This document shows, one piece after another, positions 12,454 to 53,775 of a DNA stretch of 64,000 nucleotides. This stretch comes from Methylomonas paludis. GTDB lineage: Bacteria > Pseudomonadota > Gammaproteobacteria > Methylococcales > Methylomonadaceae. Each line of letters opens with the position of its first letter. Within the stretch, counting starts at the first letter, position 1. Under the pieces are notes generated by a model. The model was not told the origin of the DNA. It searched no databases and saw only the letters and a list, made by a program, of their open reading frames with translations. Both the position numbers and the translations under genes were made by a program. The stretch lies in the NCBI RefSeq assembly GCF_018734325.1, contig NZ_CP073754.1, positions 1,116,001 to 1,180,000 of the forward strand, in the 5' to 3' direction.

Positions 12454-13536
12454 TTAAGCGGCATTTTTGTTCTGAGTTGTCTCCTCTGTATTAGGTTTAC
12501 TGTTAGTCACTGGCTTATCAGGATTAAGGTGGACTGCTTGGATGCAATCCCAATTCCGCGTGTTACCAGTCCATCGCTTCGGGTTTCGATCACGGGCAGC
12601 CTCATAAACGGCTTTACGCTTAACCAGTAGGCCTTGATCTAAGCCTTCATGGCGTTGCGCTGGCGTGACAAACCGGATGGCGCTGTGGCGATGCTCGTGG
12701 TTGTACCATTCCACCAGTCTCGTTACCCAGTCACGAGCATCCGTCACCTTTGCAAACGGCTTTAACGGATAGTTTGGCCGGTATTTTAAGGTCTTAAAGA
12801 GCGATTCTGAGTAAGGATTGTCGTTGCTAACCGAAGGCCGACTTAACGAGGGCATGACACCGAGTTGTTGCAAGGTTGCCAGCATGGTAGCGCCTTTCAT
12901 GGGGCTACCGTTATCAGAGTGCAGTATCAGCTGTTTGGGCTGTATCCCCTCACGATGGCACAGGTCACGTAACAATTCGCCTGCCAAGGTACTGCTTTCC
13001 TCTTCAAACACCTGCCAACCCACGATCTTTCGGCTGAAAATATCCACAAACAGGTAAAGATAGAAAAACTGTCCACGGATTGCTGATGGCAGATAGGTAA
13101 TATCCCAGCTATAAAGTTGGTTAGGTACGGTGGCACAGAGGGCACGCGGTTTAGTGCGGGATTGAGCAGGGCGTTCACTGCGACGGTGTGCCAATTGGTT
13201 TTCTGCTCGCAGTACGCGATAGAATGTCGATTCAGAAGCCAGATAGCGGCCTTGATCGGCCAGCCGAGGTACGATCTGACTCGGCGGCAGATGCCCAAAT
13301 TCATCGGAATTGGCAACAGCCAACACCTCGGCTCGCTCCATGACGGTAAGCTTATGCGGCGGTTGATATTCACGTAATGGACGTTGATCACAATGAACGG
13401 TCTCACCGGTCTGCCAGCGCTGCAAGGTGCGTTCGCTTAAACCCAGCACTTCACAAGCTTGGGCTTGCCGCGCACCCGCTATTATCGATTCATTCAGTAA
13501 AACAATTACTTGCTTGCGCTCTTCGTGGGCAGTCAT
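12454..13536 (-). CDS. IS3-family transposase OrfB (catalytic subunit)
   Basis: A 360-residue integrase-fold transposase with an N-terminal helix-turn-helix region, an HTH_21-like segment and an rve core. The DDE triad is visible: D in SWDITYLPSA, D in ILHSDNGSPMKG and E in NPYSESLFKTLKYRP. The ATG overlaps the orfA stop as ATGA, so coupling or frameshifting would produce it together with OrfA, the usual IS3 arrangement. The C-terminal extension (KPNTEETTQNKNAA) is unremarkable. Appears complete and potentially active. Confidence 0.92.
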   Translation of the reverse strand: MTAHEERKQVIVLLNESIIAGARQAQACEVLGLSERTLQRWQTGETVHCDQRPLREYQPPHKLTVMERAEVLAVANSDEFGHLPPSQIVPRLADQGRYLASESTFYRVLRAENQLAHRRSERPAQSRTKPRALCATVPNQLYSWDITYLPSAIRGQFFYLYLFVDIFSRKIVGWQVFEEESSTLAGELLRDLCHREGIQPKQLILHSDNGSPMKGATMLATLQQLGVMPSLSRPSVSNDNPYSESLFKTLKYRPNYPLKPFAKVTDARDWVTRLVEWYNHEHRHSAIRFVTPAQRHEGLDQGLLVKRKAVYEAARDRNPKRWTGNTRNWDCIQAVHLNPDKPVTNSKPNTEETTQNKNAA

Positions 13537-52071: not shown

Positions 52072-52079
52072 GAGATATA

Positions 52080-53767
52080 GGCTACCCACTTAAACCGGGA
52101 CAAAATCAAGCGTTCGCCGCACAGTCCTGTATCATGAGTTAATGACTAAAAAAACAAAACGACACAAGGAATCCGTGCAACGAACCGCTCGATTATCAAT
52201 GAACTGGTAGCCCGTGGCAAGAAAAGTCTTAGACAATTGGCGGTGCTGGTCAATCGATCCAAAAGTAGCGTCCATCGGCACCAAAAAGCGCAAGCCCGAC
52301 GCCATCAATATCCCGAATCTGCCCTATGGGAAACCGAAGCAGGCGAAGCCTGGTTGAAACTATTGATGGTTGCGGTTCTGTACAGTTTTGGCATGGAGTG
52401 CCATGTTGGAGCCGACAAGTTGTCGCGATTTTTCAAGCTGATTCGCATTGACACGCATGTGGGCATATCTTCATCGGCATTGCGTCAGCAATTGAGCCGG
52501 ATGGAAAGCCTGTTACCCGTATTTCAGCAGCGTTGTGAAAGCGGCGTTTCAGCTCAAACACGTTCAGCCGTAGTCGCCATGGATGAAACATTTTTTGGTG
52601 ATTTTCTCATCCTGGTGCTGATGGACTTGTCGTCCGGTTATTTGATTCTGGAAGACATCAGCCATGACCGTCGCTTCGATACTTGGTTTGAGAAAGCGAT
52701 ACCGCGCCTAAAAGAGTTGGGTATTGACGTCAACCACGCCGTCAGCGACCGAGCCAAAGCCTTGATCAAACTGGCTATTACCGGGTTTGACTGTCAATCA
52801 GGTGCCGATATTTTTCATGCACAGCAGGATGTCAGCAAATGGTTGGGTGCAACGCTGGGAAGGCGGCACGAACAAGCGAAAACTCAACTGGAAACGGCTG
52901 AGGCGCTATTGAAAAAGAAACCGGACAACAACCTCGCCGAATTGGTGCAGGTCGTTGATGCAGAACGAGCCTATAAACAGATACAGGAAACACGCGCCGA
53001 TTATCACGAAAATCTGGCCAGCATTGCCGAAGATGTTCATCCGTTTTCGTTAGAAACCCAGAAAATCAATCGGGCGGAACAGGTGACTTTCAGTCTGGAA
53101 AAACGCGCTCAGGCGTTTGAAAAAATCGCGCAATCGCAATCTATTGCTGACATAAAACAGACCATAAATAAGTTTCGTAATCAATTGAATGACTTAGCGT
53201 CCAATGTAGAAACCTGGTGGCTATGGGTCATGGAAATTCTAGCCGGTCTTTCGGTGGATGAGGCAACGCACTACTGGCTGATTCATGCCCTGTTACCAAC
53301 GGTGTACTGGCATCAGCAACTGCTCAAAACCCAAAACCCCAGGCAAAGGGAAAAATACCGTCAGGCTTGGCAGCAAGCCGCGCAGCATTTACAGACTGAT
53401 GCTTTCACAGCAACCCTGTCGGAAAGCGAATTGCAACGCTGGTTGGAATGGGCAGAGTGGATGGCGCGGAACTTTCATCGCAGTTCTTCCGCCGTCGAGG
53501 GGCGTAATGGTTATCTGTCGCAGATGTATCACAATGGCCGTGGCTTGACCGAAAAACGCCTGAGGGCATTGACAGTGATTCATAACTACGGACTCAAACG
53601 GACTGATGGAACAACAGCGGCAATGCGCTTGTTTGGTCAAACGTTTCCTGATTTGTTTTTATGGTTGGTTGCTGAAATGGGCGAGCTTCCGCTGCCAAGA
53701 AAGGGGCGGGAGCGGACTATTCATAACCCATTGTTTTTGAAAACTGTCCCGGCTTAAGTTGGAAGCC
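52080..53767 (+). mobile_element. Complete insertion sequence with DUF6399-like transposase
   Basis: 1688 bp. The ends are 23-bp inverted repeats: left GGCTACCCACTTAAACCGGG-ACA, right (inverted) GGCTTCCAACTTAAGCCGGG-ACA, three mismatches. GAGATATA occurs directly outside both ends (52072-52079 and 53768-53775), an 8-bp target duplication. One large gene fills the element. I cannot assign it to an IS family I know. Confidence 0.85.
52237..53757 (+). CDS. DUF6399-like putative DDE transposase
   Basis: At least 506 residues from TTG 52237; the frame is open back to about 52150 and the upstream part (SIINELVARGKKSLRQLAVL then VNRSKSSVHRHQ) completes a helix-turn-helix cut by that TTG, so translation probably begins earlier from a non-ATG codon or after a frameshift from ATG 52141. 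Likely catalytic acids: D in VVAMDETFFGDFLI, D in NHAVSDRAKALIK and E in SSSAVEGRNGYLSQMYHNGRGL. A helical insertion with long coiled stretches (about 215-310) separates the second and third. Ends five bases before the inverted repeat core. Position between inverted repeats supports a transposase role. Confidence 0.75.
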   Translation: MAVLVNRSKSSVHRHQKAQARRHQYPESALWETEAGEAWLKLLMVAVLYSFGMECHVGADKLSRFFKLIRIDTHVGISSSALRQQLSRMESLLPVFQQRCESGVSAQTRSAVVAMDETFFGDFLILVLMDLSSGYLILEDISHDRRFDTWFEKAIPRLKELGIDVNHAVSDRAKALIKLAITGFDCQSGADIFHAQQDVSKWLGATLGRRHEQAKTQLETAEALLKKKPDNNLAELVQVVDAERAYKQIQETRADYHENLASIAEDVHPFSLETQKINRAEQVTFSLEKRAQAFEKIAQSQSIADIKQTINKFRNQLNDLASNVETWWLWVMEILAGLSVDEATHYWLIHALLPTVYWHQQLLKTQNPRQREKYRQAWQQAAQHLQTDAFTATLSESELQRWLEWAEWMARNFHRSSSAVEGRNGYLSQMYHNGRGLTEKRLRALTVIHNYGLKRTDGTTAAMRLFGQTFPDLFLWLVAEMGELPLPRKGRERTIHNPLFLKTVPA

Positions 53768-53775
53768 GAGATATA

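Follow-up and report, generated by a model that had tools for sequence, protein, structure and literature searches.

The window analyzed here, a stretch of 64,000 nucleotides of Methylomonas paludis DNA, contains a complete insertion sequence of 1688 bp on the plus strand (52080-53767), with an 8-bp target-site duplication, GAGATATA, immediately outside each end (52072-52079 and 53768-53775). Its 23-bp inverted ends, GGCTACCCACTTAAACCGGGACA on the left (52080-52102, plus strand; the motif is also present in relatives) and GGCTTCCAACTTAAGCCGGGACA on the right (53745-53767, minus-strand reading), are identical at 20 of 23 positions. Among the 62,272 position pairs at this spacing in the window, a single one has inverted repeats of at least 20/23 and a single one has an 8-bp direct repeat, and in both cases it is the DUF6399 element itself. 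The initial annotation, made from the sequence of the window, had placed an element with 23-bp ends and an 8-bp duplication at exactly these coordinates, and our analysis bears it out.

The large ORF of the element (52150-53757, plus strand; 535 codons to the stop) encodes a protein that aligns with DUF6399 (PF19936; E = 4.7e-64, 215 bits vs a gathering score of 35.4). This match was recovered in 30/30 diverse relatives, and the window protein reaches the cut-off for no other family. Residues D145, D200, D220, H223 and E450 are among those invariant across the 30 relatives. An AlphaFold model of the protein (pLDDT 90.1, pTM 0.83) opens with an HTH region, followed by strands at residues 138-149, 152-159 and 165-171, a helix, a strand at 192-199 leading to D200, a strand at 216-219, a helical block at 221-440, and a helix at 447-464 that carries E450. 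The HTH region corresponds to a predicted N-terminal DNA-binding domain (residues 3-51; 52156-52302, plus strand), which has weak matches to HTH_24, HTH_38 and HTH_IclR and comprises model helices 3-22, 27-34 and 38-51. The first catalytic Asp, D145 (52582-52584, plus strand; MDETFF), lies in beta-1, the second, D200 (52747-52749, plus strand; SDRAKAL), follows beta-4, and the catalytic Glu, E450 (53497-53499, plus strand), belongs to the motif SSxVEGRNG. These residues support the D, D, E set that had been considered plausible from the sequence, and the long helical insertion noted before the Glu appears in the model as an all-helical domain (residues 221-440; 52810-53469, plus strand; mean pLDDT 90) between beta-5 and the Glu helix. 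At its entry lies D220-I-F-H223 (52807-52818, plus strand), the counterpart of a C/DxxH motif that has been described in other transposases with such an insertion (PMC7780238).

A sequence search of solved structures returned HTH and coiled-coil noise only. The only Foldseek matches at E<1e-3 were Hermes and ISCth4, Hermes having the best E-value. Upon structural realignment most of the matches listed were retroviral integrase cores of ~130 residues, and ISCth4 gave the longest alignment among the matches listed (262 residues, Z 13.4, rmsd 3.9). A predicted structure had been suggested as a check on the initial annotation; the one obtained contains an RNase H core with D145/D200/E450, and on this model the DUF6399 protein is an RNase H-like DDE transposase with a helical insertion.

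Copies in the host genome and across bacteria

The host genome (one 3.67-Mb contig) carries six copies of the whole 1688 bp with common boundaries, five of which are identical; the sixth has one change, which creates a stop codon. Besides the window copy, the copy L006 is flanked by the duplication CGTATATG, and L003 and L004 lie head to tail, separated by the spacer CTGTTT, with AAATTTTC on both sides of the pair as a whole; in total, three insertions in this genome show perfect 8-bp repeats. The two remaining copies (L001 and L002; 2/6 of the window type) are without a duplication, a condition commonly attributed to recombination or adjacent deletions (PMC11708052). In silico removal of the L003/L004 pair together with one AAATTTTC restored a 474-codon PIF1-helicase ORF, and removal of L006 with one repeat restored an AraC/GyrI-like regulator gene, and in each case a Pfam model matches the restored ORF across the join. 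Since deletion restores intact genes, insertion duplicates exactly 8 bp. For the window copy, a search with its joined flanks found no empty orthologous site in 36 genomes of the genus, because the intergenic region is too divergent or absent in congeners. The element at 52080-53767 is a real, recently active insertion sequence. Elsewhere in the window, positions 12943-13473 (minus strand) are part of another multicopy element; this stretch is present at eight places of the host genome and has a weak match (22 bits) to the ISNCY_2 transposase model.

A genome scan of bacteria and archaea gave 185 encoding loci, 80 of which were kept. DUF6399 loci were found in Methylococcales (a match in 49/311 genomes of this order), Zoogloea, Accumulibacter, Cycloclasticus, Magnetococcales, Desulfobacterota, many Cyanobacteria, a Kaiserbacterium and Planctomycetota. 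No relatives were found among viral contigs and phage records, and a PHROGs search gave no match. With element ends picked by inverted-repeat similarity alone at 50 loci, exact 8-bp flanking repeats were present at 28, vs 0/2450 control cross-pairings; other repeat lengths were essentially absent, and four further repeats read as 6 bp because the inverted-repeat call was one base off on each side. Related ends with 8-bp duplications were seen in Methylococcales, Desulfobacterota, Cyanobacteria, Kaiserbacteria and Planctomycetota. The end consensus of these elements is GG(C/G)TA.C.ACTTAAGCCGGGACA, and the target duplications are A/T-rich (76% A+T, n=26, from genome G702 and the window genome, vs 50% A+T in the window). 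Other genomes' DUF6399 genes, which the initial annotation had proposed as a check, thus have the same kind of ends and exactly 8-bp duplications, and its reading of DUF6399 as a transposase is upheld by the RNase H-like DDE model together with these inverted ends and 8-bp duplications in many genomes. A multi-phylum family of "unknown function" would in this way be recast as a family of transposases for which the ends, the length of the duplication, the fold and the catalytic residues are defined, and annotation pipelines could thereby recognise DUF6399 elements.

In genome G702 (contig C2, 2.97 Mb; same family), a DUF6399 element has reached 37 near-identical copies, which amounts to a natural burst of activity; perfect 8-bp repeats flank 23 of the 32 single copies, the other nine being without duplication. 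Leptolyngbya PCC 7375 also carries many copies of a DUF6399 element. Three 113-bp non-autonomous, MITE-like elements with the ends of the G702 insertion sequence are also present in genome G702 (L200:593-705, L201:594-706 and L202:633-745). Taken one by one, these copies have no duplication, but CCCATTTA occurs both to the left of L201 and to the right of L202, which suggests recombination between the 113-bp copies. A deep branch of the family, from Planctomycetota and a Thiodictyon plasmid (L109, L110 and L030), has different ends, GGCCTTGATC; these elements are 1.9 kb long, and 8-bp duplications are present at L109 and L030.

The start of the transposase gene

The initial annotation had described a single large gene. 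This is half right: the large DUF6399 ORF is present, but its frame contains no ATG, and no canonical start precedes the TTG at codon 30 (52237). An ATG at 52142 lies in the wrong frame, 6 nt after a -10-like TGTATCAT; behind it come ACT and a run of seven A (52148-52154, plus strand; codons 3-5). Relative to this ATG, the frame of the conserved N-terminus (residues 1-29) is -1. The box itself, TATCAT with a TG before it (52130-52135, plus strand), is a candidate on sequence alone and was missed by a scan for consensus promoters; TGTAT[CAGT]AT-like boxes are found 6-9 nt 5' of the ATG in most related methanotroph elements. In the encoded frame, the ATG opens a short ORF (52142-52210, plus strand) for a 22-residue peptide, MTKKTKRHKESVQRTARLSMNW, followed by a stop; one added A gives MTKKNKTTQGIRATNRSII..., the conserved N-terminus.

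The A7 run is present in 6/6 window-type copies, which have the same sequence, and in 36/36 G702 copies. About 15 distinct elements of the methanotroph clade have an out-of-frame ATG with A7 or A8 and no canonical in-frame start, nearly all of them in the -1 configuration, and the shifted elements form one clade (100/99 support). Inside this clade, the Crenothrix element (L039) has an in-frame ATG that was probably regained. The copy at L149 has six A and an in-frame ATG. In cyanobacterial and desulfobacterial elements the ATG is in frame, and most elements outside the methanotroph clade start in frame. The Accumulibacter genome G710 (L205-L215) has copies of the Zoogloea element, five with A7 and five with A8, most of them at contig ends; this mixture may be homopolymer or assembly noise, or it may reflect real tract instability or DNA-level phase variation.

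The position of the -10-like box predicts a leaderless or near-leaderless mRNA. Such an mRNA would start at or just before the ATG, with the A7 or A8 run behind it. To reach the transposase frame from this start, either RNA polymerase would have to slip (+1 A) or the ribosome would have to shift by -1 at codons 3-4. As judged from this arrangement, the A run is a probable slippage or -1 frameshift site, and transposase expression in the methanotroph (gammaproteobacterial) clade is probably throttled at its start by the need for one of these two events. Control by frameshifting or by slippage during transcription is well established for IS elements (PMC5009743), and the elements described here resemble those of the IS3, IS1 and IS630 type in having the transposase out of frame with the start codon, a slippery run and, presumably, low expression. 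However, the shift in IS3, IS1 and IS630-type elements joins two substantial ORFs, whereas in the DUF6399 clade it would occur at codons 3-4, with an unshifted product that is a 22-residue peptide without a domain. An A run directly behind the start codon is an unusual position for IS frameshift control, and it offers a simple testable case of slippage control of a transposase.

We consider it unlikely that the frame break is unprogrammed, with translation beginning at an internal start (a non-canonical codon, or the TTG at 52237) or with the element decayed. The TTG at codon 30 would provide an internal start in the window element, but it would skip residues 1-29, a conserved segment that makes up the first HTH helix in the model, and the first canonical start falls at codon 41 in G702, codon 59 in L033 and codon 112 in L037, where its use would delete the HTH. 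Decay is at odds with the identical A7 copies that have grown to 36 in G702, the A7 state being compatible with activity. A simple pseudogene as the cause of the break was rejected, as many elements share the break and 36 copies retain it.

Head-to-tail pairs and transposition mechanism

A pattern search for IRR-N(0-30)-IRL in 311 genomes identified head-to-tail pairs in two genomes, three in total, each with a 6-bp spacer (CTGTTT in the host genome, and GAATAG and CATTGT in G702); tandem pairs were found in none of five further genomes (Leptolyngbya, Accumulibacter and others). The spacer CTGTTT is identical to the opening 6 nt of CTGTTTTG, the 8-bp sequence to the left of L001, a match with a chance of roughly 14 in 4096 that is as would be expected if L001 had been the donor before loss of its right duplication. 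For the other two spacers no donors were identifiable in G702, and no sigma-70 junction promoter was found. The origin of tandem pairs through insertion beside a resident copy was rejected, since the second 8-bp repeat of the expected form is absent (genomes G000 and G702).

ISCth4 forms junctions of 6-8 bp, of which the 6-bp junctions integrate best, and generates A/T-rich 8-bp duplications (PMC7780238). Given its IS256-like architecture and the 6 bp found at each head-to-tail junction, we infer that the DUF6399 element probably moves by copy-out/paste-in through a circle. In such a pathway, the N-terminal HTH presumably binds the ~23-bp ends, and one end would attack flanking DNA at a point 6 nt beyond the other end; in the case of L001, an attack of the left end 6 nt beyond the right end would capture CTGTTT. 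Replication would free a circle with an IRR-6bp-IRL junction, and this circle would then integrate at a target, where the transposase would insert the element by an 8-bp staggered cut, with the preference for A/T-rich targets that the duplications show. The head-to-tail structure is exactly what would result if a circle carrying a 6-bp junction recombined with a resident copy or dimerised beside it.

Relationship to named transposase families

In hhalign comparisons, DUF6399 was aligned with IS256 at a probability of 0.4% (E 0.15) and with ISL3 at 2.7% (E 0.017; weak register DE(T/S)...D...DxFH), vs 96.6% (E 7e-10) for the positive control, IS256 with ISL3; the alignment sets are small and very remote kinship is possible. 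By this measure, DUF6399 is farther from IS256 and ISL3 than those two are from each other. In searches with family models, PF00872 (Transposase_mut) gave nothing in the host genome, PF01610 (DDE_Tnp_ISL3) and transpos_ISL3 did not match the DUF6399 element at cut-off, and none of the NCBIfam models, transpos_ISNCY_2 included, matched the window protein at cut-off, the NCBIfam model IS256_Zn_var giving a weak match (E 2e-5, 24 bits vs a 150-bit cut-off). The hAT C-terminal dimerisation and BED domains had no Pfam match in the window protein and are not among the 25 commonest Pfam families over the 30 relatives. The initial annotation had found no fit to a known family, and this stands, as no curated transposase-family profile is matched at cut-off. 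On profile evidence, DUF6399 is an IS family separable from the named families tested in this way (IS256, ISL3 and the NCBIfam models).

ISL3 elements have 8-bp duplications and ends that start with GG. DUF6399 elements share both traits, and ISL3 gives the best, though weak, hhalign register, but there is no profile match at cut-off and the E-value is far from that of the IS256-ISL3 control. The likeness to IS256, as represented by ISCth4, lies in the DDE RNase H core, the all-helical insertion with a C/DxxH motif, the A/T-rich 8-bp duplications and the ~6-bp junction spacers. In contrast to IS256, DUF6399 has no recognisable profile homology to that family, an insertion of ~220 residues vs ~65 in ISCth4 (more than threefold), and, in one clade, a slippage-type start; the subterminal motif TGTAAA, defined for IS256 (PMC7780238), is absent from both element ends. 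With hAT transposases such as Hermes, the protein has in common the RNase H core, a large helical insertion, 8-bp duplications and a place among the top Foldseek matches, but DUF6399 is a bacterial IS with an HTH N-terminus, and its 6-bp head-to-tail junctions are unexpected under cut-and-paste. Structural nearness to IS256, the 6-bp junctions and the frame break near the start all go beyond what the initial annotation had described.

These comparisons bear on three other explanations. That DUF6399 is a divergent, Mutator-like member of IS256 rather than a family of its own would accord with the A/T-rich duplications, the DxxH helical insertion, the 6-bp junctions, the nearest full-length fold being ISCth4, and the 24-bit IS256_Zn_var match; it is nevertheless quite improbable in view of the hhalign result, far below that of the IS256-ISL3 pair, the missing PF00872 match and TGTAAA motif, and the size of the helical insertion. 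We give a similarly low probability to cut-and-paste movement as in hAT, with head-to-tail pairs arising by other routes. Hermes does have the top Foldseek E-value, and 8-bp duplications occur in both classes, but an insertion beside a resident copy would bring its own 8-bp repeat, a pattern that the G000 and G702 pairs do not have, all three spacers are 6 bp, ISCth4 gives the longest whole-model alignment among the matches listed, and the hAT dimerisation domain is unmatched in Pfam. A slightly less remote, though still unlikely, alternative is that ISfinder already lists members, for example within the ISNCY groups (ISDol1 or other), in which case the family would be on record there while lacking a name in Pfam and NCBI. 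ISNCY includes groups with few members (PMC8147514), and a literature search yielded nothing usable on ISDol1; against a prior listing, NCBIfam has no match, PLSDB plasmid homologues are still labelled "DUF6399 domain-containing protein", and our literature search found no paper mentioning DUF6399.

The explanation that we favor with good confidence is a separate, autonomous DUF6399 IS family with a DDE transposase that would move by copy-out/paste-in, its expression being throttled at the start in the methanotroph clade. Its most specific form, in which the family stands apart from IS256, ISL3 and hAT, copy-out/paste-in nevertheless proceeds with a fixed 6-bp junction, and one clade relies on A-run slippage on a leaderless mRNA with essentially no transposase made from the encoded frame, seems to us only somewhat better than an even bet. 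As a second, sequence-unrelated lineage with IS256-like anatomy, DUF6399 elements would be useful for learning how helical insertions steer copy-out/paste-in transposition.
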